Source: a bacterium (GTDB taxonomy: Bacteria; UBP6; UBA1177). Taken from it: a stretch of DNA of 64,000 nt. The position numbers were made by a program, and so were the translations under genes. The stretch covers positions 142,800-206,799 of the forward strand of contig JAFYIZ010000047.1 of assembly GCA_017538365.1 (NCBI GenBank), in the 5' to 3' direction. The stretch's first letter is position 1, and each line of letters starts with the position of its first letter. Under the pieces are notes generated by a model. That model did no database searches. It saw nothing but the letters and a program-made list of their open reading frames with translations, and was not told the origin of the DNA. Shown one piece after another: positions 1-42,776 of this stretch.

Positions 1-756
1 GGCGACAGGTTTCTGTGCGAATATCCCGATGACTTGGGAACTTTCGACTTTGATTCGGTAGAAAGGCGCGTAAAAAATGAAAAAGTAAATCTTGTTTTGC
101 TATGCTCGCCAGGAAATCCGCTCGGAAAAATCTGGAAAAAAGAAGAAATTTCAAGGCTTTACAAAATATGCAGAAAATATGGCGCAAACCTTGTTTTTGA
201 CGCGGTTTACAGCGATTTATATTTTAATGAAAAGCCGTATCTTCCGTTTGACCTTGTTGATGAAACTCTTTTTGTCGTTTCGGCGTTTTCAAAAATGCTC
301 TCAATCACCGGCTGGCGTGTCGGTTACATCGTAGGGGAGGCGCAGCATATTGAAAATCTGGCGAAAATCCATGATTACACAGGGCTTTGCACTCCTTCGA
401 TCCTGCAGGCGGCGATTGCCGGATATCTGGAAAAAAACAATTTCGGTTCATATTATCTTGCTTTTTTGAGAGAAAAGGTTAGCGCCTCTTTCAAAATCAT
501 GCACTCAACACTTGAAAAAAGCGGTTTTTTCATGCCTCCGATCGACGGCGGTTACTTCGTATGGGCTAAAATTCCGCAGAAATTCGATGACGGTTTCAAA
601 TTCGCGATGGATTTATACGAAAGCAAAAAGGTCGGTACAGTTCCCGGAATTCATTTTAGCGAAAAAGGCAATAATTTCATCAGGATAAGTATTGCGAAAG
701 ATGCAGCTGAAATCGAAGAAGCTGCAAAACGCATCATTGATTTCGTCAAGCATTAA
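1..756 (+). CDS. PLP-dependent aminotransferase class I/II, C-terminal part (5' end outside window)
   Basis: The frame is open from base 1, so the N-terminus lies upstream of the window; about 251 residues are visible. It has the fold-type I aminotransferase layout: an SPGNPLGK segment (substrate and phosphate region), DAVYSDLYF supplying the conserved Asp and Tyr that hold the pyridine ring, and SAFSKMLSITGWRVGY, whose Lys should form the Schiff base with PLP. The C-terminal domain ends normally in a TAA stop. The family includes aspartate-type aminotransferases and MalY/PatB-like C-S lyases. Substrate cannot be read from the fragment. The next gene starts 81 bases on behind its own promoter, so this is probably the end of a transcription unit. 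Confidence 0.88.
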   Translation, partial: GDRFLCEYPDDLGTFDFDSVERRVKNEKVNLVLLCSPGNPLGKIWKKEEISRLYKICRKYGANLVFDAVYSDLYFNEKPYLPFDLVDETLFVVSAFSKMLSITGWRVGYIVGEAQHIENLAKIHDYTGLCTPSILQAAIAGYLEKNNFGSYYLAFLREKVSASFKIMHSTLEKSGFFMPPIDGGYFVWAKIPQKFDDGFKFAMDLYESKKVGTVPGIHFSEKGNNFIRISIAKDAAEIEEAAKRIIDFVKH

Positions 757-36094: not shown

Positions 36095-37762
36095 TTATTT
36101 TCCTCCTCTTACACACATTGCATTGTATGAACTGGTTTTCGTTGCAGGAGCTGTAAGACCTGTTTTCGTTGCCATTTTCCAAGCTGATGTTGAAGAGCTT
36201 GTCGCATTTTTGGGAGTCTTTGAAGTCGAACTCCAGAGAGTGATACTGTCAATATCCGGAAAAACCGTTGCAGGAGAATATTTTGCGTAATCCATGATGG
36301 AAATAAGTTCGTTGATGTTGGGAAGTCTCCAGTCTGTATTGCCTCCGAAAGTGAGGTTTTCGCAGTATTCAAGTGCTTCGAGCCATTTCTTTCCAGTTGC
36401 ATTCGATTTTGTCCACTGAAGTCCGCTTGCCGTATCTGTGATTACCAGACCTCCATCGATCTGTTCTTCATTGAAAACGATTGTTCCTTTTCTGAAAACT
36501 TCGCCTCTGACGCATACGGCGTAATTGGTTTTGGTCTCAGCATAGTCGTCGATTCCTGTCATAGTGTTCGGAGAGAAGTTTATTCCGAGACGGGATACCG
36601 TGCTGGAACCTGAAGCATAGAGGGTGTTCGACCAGAAAGCGCCGCTTGTCGGGAAATCGGGGAAAACTGACTCATCGACGAAATTGTAGAAAGAGTAATC
36701 GATTATTGTTGCAAGTTCCTGAATCTCGGGAAGTCTCCAGTCTGTGTATCCGCCGTATTCAAGACCTTCGCAGTAACTTACTGCTTCTTCAAATGTTGCA
36801 AGTGTTCCGTTGTAGGTTTTCTGCCATTCAAGACCGGTGTTGCTGTCAATGTTGGTCGGATTTGTGTTTGTGCCGCCGGTTGTGAAGTTTCTTGCAGCAC
36901 AGGTATCTGTACGCTGCGGATCCTGTCCGAAATATCCAGATTCAGGATTGCTGTCGCACTCTTCAAGCGGTTTGTTGTCGGTTCCGTAGCAGAGAGCAGC
37001 ACCGGTGCAGGAGAGAGTGTAGGGTTCCTGTACAACTTCGGGTTCTTCGGTAGGATCGTCCGTAGGCTCTTCAGTAGGTTCCTCTGTTGGTTCGTCCGTA
37101 GGCTCGGTCGTTGGTTCGTCAGTAGGTTCTGCGGTTGGTTCATCGGTCGGCTCAGTTGTCGGTTCGATCGGGCTTGTGCCGGTTTCAACCAGTATAAAAG
37201 CATAACTTGAGAAGTGTCCCGCATTCATCATAATCGGGTCTCCTGCCATAATCGGGTCGCCGCCCATAATCGGATCACCGGCCATAATCGGATCCCCTGC
37301 CATTATCGGGTCACCGCCCATGATCGGATCGCCGCCTGCTTCGCGGTGAGACCATTTTGTTCCTGCGAGGAATGCCGGAACTACCGCCATATTTTCGGGA
37401 ACAGTCGTGTAGGTCGAGTCAATAGTCAGCGTGATCGTTACATCTTTGTTGAAGACAAGGCCTGTTGGCTCGAAAGTTACGACCTTTGAAACAAGTTTGT
37501 CTTCATCGGGGAAACTTTTTTTCTCAAAAAGTGTCATCGTGATCTCAGTGTCTTGATCAAGAGCACCGGCAGGAATTTCGATCTTAGCGGCTCCGCCCTC
37601 AGTTTCGATTGTGCCGCCGTCTGTTGCCGAAACAGTCATTTTTGTAGAGGTGATCTGCTGTTTTTCACCGTTGTTTTCAGGCTCTTTTTCTTTTTTGCTG
37701 CTTCCGCATGCAGAGAGAACAAGAATCAAAACCATGAAAATTGAAATCAGGAACTTTTTCAT
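36095..37762 (-). CDS. Lipoprotein with ZU5-like domain, GDPIM repeats, Thr/Glu/Pro stalk and two DUF1566 domains
   Basis: 555 residues from the ATG at 37762 (GGAGGAG upstream). Signal peptide with lipobox LSAC (Cys about residue 19). Residues about 40-130 read like a ZU5-type beta domain (GGTIETEGGAAKIEIPAGAL). Then six perfect-length hexapeptide repeats (G/A)GDPIM, then a PT-rich stalk of about 45 residues built from TEPTDEP units, then two DUF1566 (Lcl-type) domains, each with the YGGYTDWRLPEIQEL or FGGNTDWRLPNINEL signature and C-terminal CVRG. DUF1566 is found on secreted and surface proteins and includes adhesion-related Lcl. It is the first gene of a unit with the MFS transporter. Confidence 0.85.
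   Translation of the reverse strand: MKKFLISIFMVLILVLSACGSSKKEKEPENNGEKQQITSTKMTVSATDGGTIETEGGAAKIEIPAGALDQDTEITMTLFEKKSFPDEDKLVSKVVTFEPTGLVFNKDVTITLTIDSTYTTVPENMAVVPAFLAGTKWSHREAGGDPIMGGDPIMAGDPIMAGDPIMGGDPIMAGDPIMMNAGHFSSYAFILVETGTSPIEPTTEPTDEPTAEPTDEPTTEPTDEPTEEPTEEPTDDPTEEPEVVQEPYTLSCTGAALCYGTDNKPLEECDSNPESGYFGQDPQRTDTCAARNFTTGGTNTNPTNIDSNTGLEWQKTYNGTLATFEEAVSYCEGLEYGGYTDWRLPEIQELATIIDYSFYNFVDESVFPDFPTSGAFWSNTLYASGSSTVSRLGINFSPNTMTGIDDYAETKTNYAVCVRGEVFRKGTIVFNEEQIDGGLVITDTASGLQWTKSNATGKKWLEALEYCENLTFGGNTDWRLPNINELISIMDYAKYSPATVFPDIDSITLWSSTSKTPKNATSSSTSAWKMATKTGLTAPATKTSSYNAMCVRGGK
37229..37336 (-). repeat. Six tandem 18-bp repeats encoding (G/A)GDPIM
   Basis: Six in-frame 18-base units lie head to tail inside the lipoprotein gene. 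They differ mainly at third codon positions (ATC/ATT/ATA, GGT/GGC/GGA), so the peptide is more conserved than the DNA. This suggests selection on protein sequence rather than fresh slippage. Confidence 0.9.
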
Positions 37763-37791
37763 TTTCTCCTCCATTAAAAAAATAACGGAAA

Positions 37792-37851: not shown

Positions 37852-37873
37852 TGCGCGGTTTTTGAGAGGAATC

Positions 37874-39037
37874 ATGCTGCTGAACGAATTTATTCCGGTA
37901 GATAAAAGCTCGGCGATAAGGGCATTTCTTTTTTCGCTTTTTACTGATGACGATGTCGAAGTGATCTGCGGCAGCGTTCTTCCCGAAGATGTGATTTCTG
38001 CAATTAACTGCCTGAATTTATTCGGTAAAATTGTTGAGCAAAATGGCGTGAGTTTCAAAATTTCTAGTAAAGCGAAGAAGCCTGTTAAAGCAATCGACTG
38101 CGGAAATTCGGCGACGATGATGCACATTCTGATGGGGATTTCGGTTTATCTCGGAGATGATTTTGAACTCACAGGTGACAAATCCTTAATGTCGCGTAAT
38201 CACAGCGATTTTTCTGAGGCTGCAAAACTTTATCACGGAAATTTTGTTGAAACAACTCTCACGAAAGAGAGTGCCCAGCTCAAGTCTTTTCACCTGATCT
38301 CGATGCTGAAGAACGGCGGAAAACTTCATTTTAAGAGCAGGACACGCAGGAATACCGAAGATCTTCTCACCAAAATGGGGGCGAAAATCGTTGAAAATCA
38401 GAATTGCATTGAAGTTTTTTCCCTTGAAACTCTGCACGGCTATTCAGTTGAGATCAAACTTGATCCGTCGTCAGCTTTCATTACCGCGTGCGCCGCTTTT
38501 GTTTTCGGAAGATCGTTTGAAATTTCAAATATTTATCACGATGATTCGCGCATGACACCTTTTCTGTTGCTTCAAAATGCCGGTTTTGACATAAAGATCG
38601 AAGAAGATGCTGATTCTTTCAAAGTTTCCGGAACTCCGCTTTGCAAAGAAATGCACGATATAAATGTTTCTAAAGATCAAGTTGCCGAGATCATTGATGA
38701 AATACCTTTTATTGCCTTCATTGTGGCACGAATCGGAAAAACATTCACAGTAAAAAATGCATCGTGGCTCAGAAACAAGGAGAGCGACCGCATCAGCGAG
38801 AGCGTAAAGAGGTTTTCTCTTACGTTTGAAACTGAGGAGTTTACCGATGGTTTCAGCGTTTCAGGTGCTGCAGGACACGCTTTGAAAGGCGATATCCCGC
38901 ACAGTTTTGATCACAGGATGGAGATGCTTTCAAGTTTGATAGCACTTGATAACGGTGTAGATTTTAAAATGAATGCTTCCTATAAAATTTCATTTCCAAA
39001 ATTTTACGAACTTTTTAAATATTTGAAAAATGACTAA
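37874..39037 (+). CDS. aroA: 3-phosphoshikimate 1-carboxyvinyltransferase (EPSP synthase), divergent
   Basis: 387 residues from the ATG at 37874. It joins shikimate 3-phosphate and PEP, the sixth step to chorismate. Recognisable sites are DKSSAIRA (Lys, Ser and Arg at the spacing of E. coli 22/23/27), SAQLKS (Gln171), SSAFITACAA, DEIPFIA (catalytic Asp313), RNKESDRI (Glu341), DHRMEM and a Lys in SYKISFPKF. The PEP loop reads GNSATMMH where E. coli has LGNAGTAMR: Gly96 is Ala and Arg100 is His. GDKSLMSRNH replaces the usual GD-x-S-L-x-x-RPM. It is shorter than the usual 427. Ala at position 96 is known from glyphosate-insensitive enzymes. It overlaps aroQ by 8 bases. Confidence 0.87.
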   Translation: MLLNEFIPVDKSSAIRAFLFSLFTDDDVEVICGSVLPEDVISAINCLNLFGKIVEQNGVSFKISSKAKKPVKAIDCGNSATMMHILMGISVYLGDDFELTGDKSLMSRNHSDFSEAAKLYHGNFVETTLTKESAQLKSFHLISMLKNGGKLHFKSRTRRNTEDLLTKMGAKIVENQNCIEVFSLETLHGYSVEIKLDPSSAFITACAAFVFGRSFEISNIYHDDSRMTPFLLLQNAGFDIKIEEDADSFKVSGTPLCKEMHDINVSKDQVAEIIDEIPFIAFIVARIGKTFTVKNASWLRNKESDRISESVKRFSLTFETEEFTDGFSVSGAAGHALKGDIPHSFDHRMEMLSSLIALDNGVDFKMNASYKISFPKFYELFKYLKND

Positions 39038-39278
39038 TGAAATCAAAGAGTTAAGAGCTAAACTCGATTTGCTTGATGACAAAATTTCCGATCTCATTTC
39101 GGAAAGAGTCAAAACCGCAAGAAAAATCGTTGAAATCAAAGGCAGAAACGATATGCCGAAAGACGATTTTTCAAGAGAAAGCGCTATTTTGAATCGTATT
39201 TCGGAACTTCACCCCGAAAATTCGGAACTTTTGAAAGAAATCTACGGGAGAATATTCGATTGGGTGAAAAATCACTAA
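39030..39278 (+). CDS. aroQ: Chorismate mutase, AroQ type
   Basis: 82 residues. All-helical enzyme that converts chorismate to prephenate. Conserved positions are Arg9 in ELRAKLDLLDDKI, Arg26 in ISERVKTARKIVEIKG with its Lys, and DDFSRESAILNRI, where Arg-Glu bind substrate. The length is that of a stand-alone domain. The start lies 8 bases inside aroA, so the two consecutive chorismate steps are translationally coupled. No prephenate dehydratase or dehydrogenase is fused or nearby. Confidence 0.9.
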   Translation: MTNEIKELRAKLDLLDDKISDLISERVKTARKIVEIKGRNDMPKDDFSRESAILNRISELHPENSELLKEIYGRIFDWVKNH

Positions 39279-40315
39279 ATAAGGGAAAATATTTAAGAAA
39301 ATTAGAATTTATCCTTATAGTTTCAATCTCTTTTTTCCTCTATTTTCTGCTGAAAGAGACGCCTCAAAAAGAGGAAATTCCCAAAATTCAGGAGCCGGAA
39401 ACCGTTCACGCTCAAGTTGAGCCGGAAAAGCCTGAAACTGAAGAAAAAATTTCAGTTTATTTCGACAGAGACGTTCAAACAATAGTTGAAAAAATGATAA
39501 AAAGTGCCCAAAAAACGATCGATGCGGCGACTTACACTTATTCTCGGAATGAAATAACGGAACTTTTGGAAAAGCAGGCTTCAGAAGGAGTGAAAGTGCG
39601 TCTTGCGGCGGGAAAAAACAAGGATAAAACTCTTCCCGCGTTCGATTTTTCGCTCGCAAAAACGGATAAAGGGATCTATCACCCGAAATTTTTCGTTTTT
39701 GATGACAAGGACGTGCTGATCCTTTCTGCAAATATCTCTTCTTCATCTGACGCTTCGAACAACGCCGTTCTTTTCAGAAACGTTCCCGAGGCAGCCGCGA
39801 TACTTAGAAGCGAGATCGACGATGTTTTTGCAGGAATTGTCGGAAAAAGGTGCGCTGAAGGCTGCGGTACTGAGATCGGAACGATAATTTTCAATCCGGG
39901 AAAGGGTTGTGTGAAGGTGCGCGACGAATTTCTTGCCGCAGAAAAATCGGTAAAAGGGGCGGTTTATACCGTGACACAGAAAAATCCGATCATCACAGGG
40001 CTTAAAAAAGCGGTTAAGCGCGGTATCGGGGTGCAGCTCATCATAGACAACTGGCGCGGAGAAGACGGAAAAATCGTAAATAAAAAAGCGGCGAATTACC
40101 TTGAAAGTATCGGTATAAAACTCAAATACGACGAGCCAGAAAGCCGTGACGAGCATCTTTTTCACCACAAATTCGCCGAGATCGATGAAAAAACGGCAGT
40201 TTTCGGATCAATGAACTGGACCGCTTCGGCGTGTTACAGAAACCGCGAAATAATCGTCATTTCAAAAGATCCGTTCATTGCTGCCTCTTTTGCCGGTTAT
40301 TTCGATAAATTCTGA
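39260..40315 (+). CDS. Membrane-anchored phospholipase D-like protein with two HKD motifs
   Basis: 351 residues. The only usable start in frame is TTG at 39260, nine bases after GGGAG and 19 bases inside aroQ. An N-terminal helix (about residues 16-31) anchors the protein; a Glu/Pro-rich linker follows. Two PLD domains carry HPKFFVFDDKD (HxK, about residue 137) and HHKFAEID (HxK-x4-D, about 296), with SGSMNWTASA-type GSMNWT after the second. PLD enzymes hydrolyse phosphodiesters in lipids or nucleic acids; the single-anchor bacterial type is often a nuclease or lipase. Why it is coupled to aroQ is unclear. Confidence 0.85.
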   Translation: MGEKSLNKGKYLRKLEFILIVSISFFLYFLLKETPQKEEIPKIQEPETVHAQVEPEKPETEEKISVYFDRDVQTIVEKMIKSAQKTIDAATYTYSRNEITELLEKQASEGVKVRLAAGKNKDKTLPAFDFSLAKTDKGIYHPKFFVFDDKDVLILSANISSSSDASNNAVLFRNVPEAAAILRSEIDDVFAGIVGKRCAEGCGTEIGTIIFNPGKGCVKVRDEFLAAEKSVKGAVYTVTQKNPIITGLKKAVKRGIGVQLIIDNWRGEDGKIVNKKAANYLESIGIKLKYDEPESRDEHLFHHKFAEIDEKTAVFGSMNWTASACYRNREIIVISKDPFIAASFAGYFDKF

Positions 40316-40336: not shown

Positions 40337-40364
40337 TTGTAAAAATTTTCAAACAATATAAAGT
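40337..40364 (+). promoter_or_regulatory. Promoter of the Lon-like protease gene
   Basis: TTGTAA (40337-40342), 16-nt spacer, TAAAGT (40359-40364); AGGAGGT lies before the ATG at 40396. Confidence 0.4.
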
Positions 40365-40395
40365 GCCCTGTTTTTGTGAATTGAAGGAGGTAAAA

Positions 40396-42776
40396 ATGAA
40401 GCCGGCGCTTAAAGAACTTAAACCGAAAGATTTGAGATACTATCCCGAACTTGCCAAATATAAAGGCAAAACTACCAAAGATATCAAGCCAGTTTCGCTT
40501 TTTTCATTCCAGAAAAGGGGATTCGAAGCGCTTGATTTCGGAATGGATGTCCGCAAAAAAGGTTTCAATATTTATGTCGCAGGAGATCCGGGAAGCGGAA
40601 AAACTTCGAATGTAAAGAAATATATCGAGGATGTCGCAAAGCATCTGCCTGTTCCCGATGATCTGCTTTATGTTTACAACTTCGAGGATTACGATTCGCC
40701 GAACATGCTTTTCATGAAGGCGGGAAGCGGCGAAAAGTTCATCAAAGACATGGACGAGCTTCTTGACGGCTTCATCGAACAGATTCCGAGACAGATGGAA
40801 AGCGAGAATTTCGAGAGTCTGCGTGCCGAAGTAGCCCAGACATACCGCGACAGAATGCAGAAAAGTTATAATGAACTTGAAGCAGAGGCGGCAAAACTCG
40901 ATTTCGCACTGAGTTCTACCGAAAACGGTCTTGTGCTGAATCCGATAGTTGACGGAAAACCGATAAACAAAGAGGAATACGAGTCTCTTGACGAAAGCAA
41001 CAAAGAAAAAATAAGGAAAAACGAGAGCGCGCTTCAGGAAAAGCTGATTGCATATTTCCATCAGGACAGAAAGAACGAGAAGGAATACAAGGAAAAAATG
41101 AGCGATCTGCAGCGCACGACTGTTAAAAAGATAATTTCCGAGCCGCTGAACGACCTTGCTAAAAAATACGGCAAAAATGAAGGAGTCAGGGAATATCTCG
41201 ATTCGATCGCAGAGTTTACAATCAATAACTTTTCCGATTTTTTCACTTACCGCGATTTCCTCGAAGGAAAAGTCGATCCGATGAAGACGCTTATTCCCGA
41301 TTTTAAGGAATACAAGGTCAATCTGCTCATCAACAACAAGGATCTGAAAGGAGCTCCGGTAATTTACGAGACAAATCCGACTTTCCAGAACATCATCGGA
41401 TATTTCGAATACGAAGAGAACCACAATTCGCTTTTCACCGATTTCACGAGGCTGAAACCGGGTGCTCTGCACCGCGCAAACGGCGGATTTCTGATAATCC
41501 AGGCCGACGACATTCTGAAAAACTACTACGCATGGACCGCTTTGAAACGCGCTGTCCGCAACAGGTTGATAAAAATCGAGGATATGGACGCAGATTTCAA
41601 ATACCGCGTGATTTCAGCACCTAATCCTGAGGCTGTTCCGCTTGAAATCAAGGTCGTTCTTATCGGAGACGAAGAAATTTACCATCTGCTTTACGAGCGT
41701 GACCCCGAGTTTAGGCGTATTTTCAAGGTCAAAGCTGATTTTGAGTCCGTTGTCGATGTCAACGCTTCAACGACAGACACTCTCATCGGTTTCATTTCGA
41801 GAATCGTCAACGACGACTGCGAGCTTCCGTTCGATCTGTCGGCTATAAGAAGACTTCTTTTCTATAGTTCGAGACGCGCCGAAGACCAGACAAAATACAG
41901 AGTTCACGCAAGCGATATCGTTGAAATCATTGTGGAAGCTGTTTACTGGGCGCAGCACAAAAACAAGAAAGTGGTTTCGGAAGACATGGTTATTACCGCG
42001 ATAGAAAGCCGCGAAAAAAGATACGACAGATTCCGCGAACACTACTTCGAATCGATAAAGAAAGGAACGATTCTGATAGATGTCAAAGGAGCGAAAGTAG
42101 GGCAGATCAACGGTCTTGCGGTTTATCAGATAGGCGATTTCAGTTTCGGAATCCCGTCGAGAATCACGGCTAAGGCTTTGCAGGTCAGAGAGAGATCGTA
42201 AATATCGAGCGCGAAGCGATGCTTTCAGGTGCTATTCACGACAAAGGTTCAATGATTTTGGCAGGTTACCTGGGCGGGCTCTTTGCTGTCAAAAAGCCGC
42301 TTTCTTTCTCAGCTTCAATCGCGTTCGAGCAGAGTTACGGCGGAGTCGACGGCGACAGTGCAAGTTCAACCGAGCTTTACGCGCTCATGTCGGCACTCGG
42401 CGATGTTCCGATAAAGCAGTCGATCGCAGTCACCGGTTCAATCAACCAGATGGGTGAAATTCAGCCTATAGGCGGTGTAAATGAAAAGATTGAAGGCTTC
42501 TTTGAAATCTGCAATCTTCGCGGACTTACTGGCGATCAAGGTGTCATGATCCCGATTCAGAATGTTGCGAACCTCAACCTAAGCGATGATGTTGTCAAAG
42601 CGGTCGAAAACGGCAAATTCCACATTTACGCAATCAAGAACGTTCTTGAAGGAATCGAGATTCTGACCGGTGTTCCGGCGGGAACGAGAGGAAAAGACGG
42701 CAAATTCACGAAAGGTTCGGTCTTTGAAAAAATAGATGCAAAACTTGAAGCACTCAGAGGAGACGGAGAGAAATAA
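40396..42776 (+). pseudogene. Lon-like ATP-dependent protease (AAA_32/Lon_C), interrupted by a frameshift
   Basis: The first frame (40396-42201) holds the N-terminal part and AAA+ domain with Walker A GDPGSGKT. It ends at TAA just after RITAKALQVRER. The rest is in the -1 frame: reading it back from the ATG at 42219 gives EIVNIEREAMLSG directly joined to the first part, with the protease dyad Ser47 (GGVDGDSASS) and Lys90 (GVNEKIEGF) counted from that ATG. The family reads RITA-x5-RGEVVDIERE here, so loss of one G in the AGAGAGAG run (42187-42194) explains it exactly. Both halves are otherwise clean, so the damage is recent, a sequencing or assembly error, or a programmed shift. It degrades unfolded proteins if intact. 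AGGAGGT supports the start. Confidence 0.85.
42187..42194 (+). other. Frameshift site in the Lon-like gene (AG dinucleotide run)
   Basis: AGAGAGAG at 42187-42194. The codon series GTC-AGA-GAG-AGA-TCG-TAA stops here, while GAG-ATC-GTA-AAT in the -1 frame restores the conserved protease sequence. No classical X-XXY-YYZ slippery heptamer is present. Confidence 0.8.

Follow-up and report, generated by a model that had tools for sequence, protein, structure and literature searches.

A divergent, probable EPSP synthase with alanine at the glyphosate-contact position, and its overlapping chorismate mutase gene, in the candidate phylum UBP6

The gene described here was found in a 64,000-nucleotide stretch of DNA (the window), whose host is taken to be a ruminant-gut bacterium of the candidate phylum UBP6. 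It very probably encodes an EPSP synthase (AroA). With good though not full confidence we read it as the working and sole EPSP synthase gene of its genome, divergent and nearest to class II, with a product that would tolerate glyphosate and would be translated together with the chorismate mutase encoded by the overlapping gene aroQ. The novelty is a combination: Ala at the place of E. coli Gly96 together with His at that of Arg100, an Arg-[ND]-His segment, Trp at column 336, a lost stretch of the chain and the link to aroQ.

The locus and its genome

The elements of the locus are as follows:
37864-37870, plus strand: GAGAGGA, putative ribosome-binding-like stretch before aroA, read directly
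37874-39037, plus strand: aroA, divergent and very probable EPSP synthase of 387 amino acids, ATG start, assigned from the PF00275 and TIGR01356 profiles and the fold
39030-39278, plus strand: aroQ, short AroQ-type chorismate mutase of 82 amino acids, assigned from CM_2 and the fold, overlapping aroA by 8 bases
39260-40315, plus strand: PLD-domain gene, a syntenic neighbour beyond aroQ for which no mechanistic part is claimed

Window AroA scores 127.6 bits against PF00275 (cut-off 22.8). Against TIGR01356, the NCBI aroA equivalog, it scores 162.4 bits, under the curated cut-off of 287.25, and standard annotation might therefore miss the AroA name; a match above this cut-off was found in 24 of 33 other genomes. 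The window genome (97.6% complete, in 49 contigs) also encodes DAHP synthase, aroB (DHQ synthase), aroE and aroC (chorismate synthase), with an aroK-like ORF, read by eye, between aroC and aroB. The initial annotation made its reading depend on the lack of a second, normal aroA: a PF00275 search of the genome found no second AroA and gave, besides this gene, only a separate MurA gene.

An aroA of this type is present in 16 of the 19 searched genomes of the window's family (hereafter the family). These span three genera, and the other 15 proteins share 44-90% identity with window AroA over the whole or longest match. Among eight relatives of the window locus, some derive from samples of goat, yak and red deer and others from further metagenome assemblies. 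A profile built from nine family members gave 16 matches above 400 bits in 386 genomes, all in-family, the next best reaching 150 bits; no donor of aroA was found in these 386 genomes with this profile.

Two other features of the window were observed. A Lon-like protease is read in two frames (40363-42201 and 42219-42776) and in one frame in G006 and in L035; the split reflects a shift of one base, which may be an error of assembly. On the minus strand, 36095-37774 encodes a lipoprotein-like protein that has Lcl_C domains, (G/A)GDPIM repeats in a row and a PT-rich segment.

Fold and function

EPSP synthase would convert shikimate-3-phosphate and PEP into EPSP and phosphate, in the two-domain fold of its family. 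The AlphaFold2 model of window AroA (pLDDT 87.5) has as its best solved match the S. pneumoniae enzyme (Z 42.0, 380 residues aligned), followed by the enzymes of B. halodurans (40.1), Coxiella (40.0) and CP4 (39.7, 2gg6); E. coli AroA (35.5) and MurA (32.4) come lower. The MurA profile NF006873 gives 20 bits of 297, and columns 340-341 hold KE where three of three MurA rows hold [YF]F. MurA-like second genes were also seen in two other genomes, G018 and G020 (L116 and L069). In three of three close pairs, dN/dS is 0.21-0.22 (NG86) or 0.21-0.25 (YN00).

The conserved catalytic set described below, the predicted fold, the synteny and the purifying selection, all computed, together indicate that the enzyme is most likely a working EPSP synthase. 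Counting against this are the TIGR01356 score under cut-off, the change of Arg100 to His, the absence of RPMxR from all 16 family members and a stretch missing from 14 of them.

Diagnostic residues

Window AroA was aligned with E. coli AroA (NC_000913) and CP4. The correspondences, all on the plus strand, are as follows, columns being numbered hereafter as in E. coli:
38102-38125, plus: GNSATMMH; Ala80 (38111-38113) is at the place of Gly96 and His84 (38123-38125) at that of Arg100
38174-38203, plus: GDKSLMSRNH; Arg108 corresponds to Arg124, and N109-H110 replace P-M/I (Pro125-Ile126 in E. coli)
38228-38269, plus: stretch where other EPSP synthases hold about 20 extra residues, between Arg124 and Gln171 (alignment and model secondary structure)
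38270-38284, plus: SAQLK, the class II S-A-Q-x-K motif; Gln135 corresponds to Gln171
38345-38359, plus: RRNTE, at the site of class II R-x-H-x-E (alignment)
38696-38698, plus: Asp275, corresponding to Asp313 (alignment)
38765-38788, plus: WLRNKESDR, W298 to R306; Trp298 is at the place of Asn336, and Lys302, Glu303 and Arg306 correspond to Lys340, Glu341 and Arg344
38909-38917, plus: DHR; His347 and Arg348 correspond to His385 and Arg386

The substitutions for Gly96 and Arg100 proposed in the initial annotation were borne out by this alignment; a Gly at position 96 was what would have spoken against it, and the residue is Ala. The active-site Asp, Glu and Lys that it listed as retained are present (Asp313, Glu341, Lys22 and Lys340). 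Its altered GDKSLMSRNH segment was right as to the P and M, which are replaced, but Arg124 itself is kept. Window AroA retains Ser23 and, like all 16 family members, Lys22, Arg27, Gln171, Asp313, Lys340, Glu341, Arg344, His385 and Arg386; Arg124 is likewise conserved in 16/16. We take this set, from Lys22 to Arg386, to be catalytic in EPSP synthase. The Lys411 column holds Ile in window AroA; of the 75 class II-like enzymes, 25 likewise have Ile there and 74 lack Lys411.

The family was compared with 94 other EPSP synthases (95 rows, L144 duplicating L091). Four weak matches taken as MurA-like (L105-L107 and L116) had been removed before alignment, a fragment (L104) before trees and residue counts, and the MurA rows before residue counts. 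Family members hold Ala96 (16/16), His100 (15/16, with Arg in L018), [ND]125 (16/16), His126 (16/16) and Trp336 (16/16). In the other enzymes Gly96 is found in 90/94, Arg100 in 94/94, Pro125 in 89/94 and Trp336 in 0/94. Ala96 occurs in 4/94 (CP4, L080, L042 and L045), a count that gives no estimate for bacteria since the 59 survey genes were chosen as best matches to the family, with class II thus over-represented. At 44 columns the other enzymes have one letter in at least 90% of cases; the family keeps 32 of these and is changed at 9.

Ala96 is already known from CP4 and is thus not itself new, L080, L042 and L045 sharing it as well; it is not this residue that would support the new class suggested as possible in the initial annotation. 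The traits distinctive of the lineage are His100, the lost RPMxR, Trp336, the lost stretch before Gln171 and the overlap or fusion with aroQ. As a side observation, L042 (G016) and L045 (G019) are EPSP synthases of another type (GES motif) from the same order, with Ala at the Gly96 place, and L043, L044 and L046 have Gly there; Ala96 thus appears to have more than one origin in the phylum.

Two explanations of these letters bear on their age and reality. Recent selection of Ala96 by glyphosate residues in feed would suit relatives that come from ruminant gut samples, but the residue is fixed in 16/16 members, in three genera and down to 43-44% identity, and so is likely to be much older than the herbicide; we regard this explanation as highly improbable. 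An assembly or frame error can for practical purposes be set aside: the assembly is in 49 contigs and a nearby protease gene is frameshifted, but genomes assembled independently, from goat, yak, red deer and further samples, carry the same motifs, and the recurrence of these letters in 16 genomes shows that they are not a chance or assembly slip.

Glyphosate

According to PMC3411725, the Gly96Ala change in the E. coli enzyme raises the Ki for glyphosate more than 1000-fold and the Km for PEP 23-fold, in agreement with the insensitivity and lowered PEP affinity stated in the initial annotation. CP4, whose Ala100 is the Gly96 equivalent, is reported to tolerate glyphosate (IC50 11 mM) and its A100G mutant to be sensitive again (PMC8983318). 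By analogy with these two cases, the window enzyme is probably glyphosate-tolerant. Against tolerance counts the absence of RPMxR: Li et al. (2009), by its title as cited in PMC3411725, states that this class II motif is required for activity and glyphosate resistance. We suggest that the methyl group of Ala80 would crowd glyphosate as that of Ala100 does in CP4, and that the co-fixed His84, N109-H110, Trp298 and the lost stretch before Gln135 may keep the use of PEP acceptable.

Length of the protein

The protein had been noted as about 40 residues short; it is exactly 40 residues shorter than the 427 of E. coli. There are 11 residues fewer before Lys22 (Lys11 in window AroA), the interval from Arg124 to Gln171 has 26 residues against 46 in E. 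coli, and the remaining deficit is scattered. In the family this interval has 26-27 residues in 14/16 members and 43-44 in two members of genus g4; elsewhere its median is 46, L102 being the one other short enzyme. The stretch missing from the 14 members is a strand-turn-strand, and in the AlphaFold2 model helix 111-120 runs to strand 125-128. Since the g4 members keep most of it, the roughly 20-residue stretch was apparently lost within the lineage.

Class of the enzyme

Class II EPSP synthases are characterized by four motifs: S-A-Q-x-K, R-x-H-x-E, N-x-T-R and G-D-K-[S/T]. These, together with RPMxR, were counted in the 16 family members and in 76 class II-like rows (75 distinct, L144 duplicating L091). 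They are distributed as follows: S-A-Q-x-K in 16/16 and 74/76; R-x-H-x-E in 0/16 at the site (with one stray match elsewhere) and 75/76; N-x-T-R in 0/16 and 65/76; RPMxR in 0/16 and 74/76. At the PxDKS site G-D-K-[S/T] is not found, position 20 being Val in 13, Pro in 2 and Ala in 1 of the 16; Asp21-Lys22-Ser23 is retained and the GDKS strings of 4/16 members sit elsewhere, the string itself being present in just 56/76 class II-like rows. Asp at 21 and Ala at 170 are found in the family as in class II.

Three quick trees were computed, with 54 rows, 57 rows (9/16 family rows and 15/60 survey rows, L103 and L046 removed) and 31 rows (6/16 family rows). The family is one clade in each, with a stem of 2.8-3.3 changes per site, and in the two trees with MurA rows (54 and 31 rows) it joins class II with SH-aLRT of 98 and 100. 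AU tests rejected neither class II without the family (p 0.71) nor the family with the other AroAs (p 0.56). The family thus appears nearest to class II, yet lacks three of its four motifs, and a derivation from class II seems likelier than a separate class.

It is conceivable, though on balance somewhat unlikely, that this is an ordinary class II enzyme on a fast-evolving branch, its unusual residues the product of neutral drift and its mechanism the usual one. SAQxK, Asp21, Ala170 and the SH-aLRT values of 98 and 100 in two trees agree with this. However, the altered columns, fixed in the family, are either almost invariant in other enzymes or never show the family's residues in them; three of four motifs fail at their sites; and the AU tests reject neither placement. 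We keep to the reading of a divergent enzyme nearest to class II.

The chorismate mutase gene

Window AroQ scores 54.8 bits against CM_2 (PF01817, cut-off 27) and is the sole CM_2 match found in the genome. The same search in 12 genomes gave one match each in 10 family genomes, two in G020 and none in G013; in 9/9 searched genomes with a family aroA, the sole match lies beside or inside that gene. The two genes overlap by 4-11 bases in 13/16 genomes and form one ORF of 491-496 residues in 3/16 (L015, L018 and L019). Because the tree neighbours L016 and L017 are not joined, the 54-row tree suggests that the joining takes two events. The overlap could allow aroA and aroQ to be translated together, which would keep production of the two enzymes in step, a coupling that would have become one chain in two lineages.

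The predicted AroQ has a three-helix fold (Z 11.2 to 2d8d), in common with the E. coli chorismate mutase (1ecm, Z 10.2) and the chorismate mutase-like domain of B. subtilis DAHP synthase (5go2, Z 11.0). Residues R9, R26, K37, D46, R49 and E50, presumably catalytic, are invariant in 9/9. With residues 3..82 set against 5..87 of E. coli, a register that we infer, window AroQ ends at the place of residue 87, before Gln88, and has Val at the place of Ser84; we assume that both E. coli residues, Gln88 being in the last helix, have roles in the reaction. The next place beyond 87 is reached in 2/16 AroQs (Gln in L011, Asp in L018).

Other fusions are known in the aromatic pathway: TyrA-EPSP synthase, chorismate mutase-prephenate dehydratase, chorismate mutase-prephenate dehydrogenase, DAHP synthase-chorismate mutase and exported chorismate mutase-CDT (PMC1173090 and PMC10520331, in the parts consulted, which do not name an EPSP synthase-chorismate mutase fusion). 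No published report of the latter was found in the literature searched, which covers a minority of subscription papers.

Two further observations concern these genes. Between the closest species aroQ is far less conserved than aroA (identity with L034 is 62% for aroQ and 90% for aroA; L035 was also compared), and L013/L039 shares the later part of window aroQ, which looks like recombination of aroQ alleles. In family f4 of the same phylum, chorismate synthase is followed within one ORF by a chorismate mutase-like domain in L221 (G025, 403-1746, 448 amino acids) and L223 (G027, 392-1753, 454 amino acids); the domain was recognized by an hmmsearch match for G027 (L075) and by likeness of the ORF end for G025.

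A bolder reading, which we offer tentatively and judge unlikely, is that of a fifth kind of EPSP synthase, its PEP side rebuilt around Ala96, paired with a minimal chorismate mutase completed or controlled by contact and twice fused to it. His100, Arg-[ND]-His, Trp336 and the lost hairpin would make up a pocket that shuts out glyphosate, and the mutase, which has no catalytic Gln at the usual place in its last helix, might be completed or controlled by contact with the EPSP synthase or a neighbouring DAHP synthase. In Mycobacterium, the activity of chorismate mutase is completed or controlled by contact with DAHP synthase.

Gene order and origin

The order of the genes differs among genera. 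In the sister genus g3 (G016), DAHP synthase is followed by aroQ and the PLD gene, and this genome has a different aroA at another place, next to aroE and aroC. G015, of g2, has DAHP synthase, aroA and aroQ in that order. In g4 (G017 and G018) the joined aroA-aroQ comes after DAHP synthase, and in G018 the PLD gene follows it. Genus g1 has the order aroA, aroQ, PLD (8/8 named loci and G006), and DAHP synthase is on a separate contig in the three of three genomes checked (G000, G003 and G006). Most simply, aroA would have been inserted between the genes for DAHP synthase and AroQ, and in g1 it would later have become separated from the former. Chorismate synthase scores 243-272 bits in the genera that carry this aroA and 379 in G016, as if aroA and aroC had been replaced together.

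G013, of the same genus and 97% complete, has DAHP synthase, aroB, aroE and aroC; no match for the family aroA or for CM_2 was found there, and its sole PF00275 match (L133) scores like MurA. A gap at the locus was considered as the cause and rejected: other ORFs (queA-like and DUF58-like by eye) occupy the region preceding the Lon-like gene. The two genes are therefore missing from this locus, though they could lie in the unassembled part. G001, also of this genus, has no aroA match, but its contig ends at the locus, so the absence says nothing.

The G013 genome bears on one more explanation: an enolpyruvyl transferase with a shifted acceptor, or a decaying EPSP synthase, in strains that take aromatic compounds from the rumen. 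Besides a 97% complete genome of the same genus without matches for aroA or CM_2, the replacement of Arg100 by His, the lost RPMxR and stretch, the long stem (2.8-3.3) and the TIGR01356 score under cut-off would fit it. Yet the catalytic residues are kept in 16/16 and dN/dS is about 0.2, and DAHP synthase, aroB, aroE and aroC are in the genome, with the chorismate mutase overlap beside them. We consider this explanation quite improbable, and a working EPSP synthase remains the preferred reading.

The interest of the family is threefold. It is a natural lineage that has fixed the resistance residue of CP4 plus changes at positions where none of 94 other enzymes varies in this way, and it lets one test how PEP affinity is kept while glyphosate is excluded. 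Its living relatives show a path from adjacent to overlapping genes and then to one EPSP synthase-chorismate mutase ORF. It also yields a prediction of which ruminant gut bacteria glyphosate in feed would spare.

Comparison with known EPSP synthases

The literature mentions a class III motif series (PMC9145961) and a class IV EPSP synthase, DGT-28 (PMC12554703). The class IV structure (7m0o) has Z 31.3 to the window model, less than the structures from class II and from E. coli. E. coli AroA (class I, 1g6s) and its G96A mutant (1mi4) give Z 35.5 and 35.3; the catalytic residues are common and the same reaction is expected, but the wild type has Gly96 and Arg100 and 20% identity to window AroA. 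The S. pneumoniae enzyme (1rf4), the closest in fold, has Gly at 96, 427 residues and 24% identity. The class II enzyme of Agrobacterium sp. CP4 (2gg4, 2gg6 and 2ggd), the Roundup Ready enzyme, shares with window AroA the Ala at the Gly96 place, Asp21, SAQxK, Arg124, the catalytic residues and the fold (Z 39.7 to 2gg6), with 25% identity in the structural alignment; unlike window AroA, it has Arg100, RPMGR, RDHTE, NPTR, Glu336 and the full stretch before Gln171.
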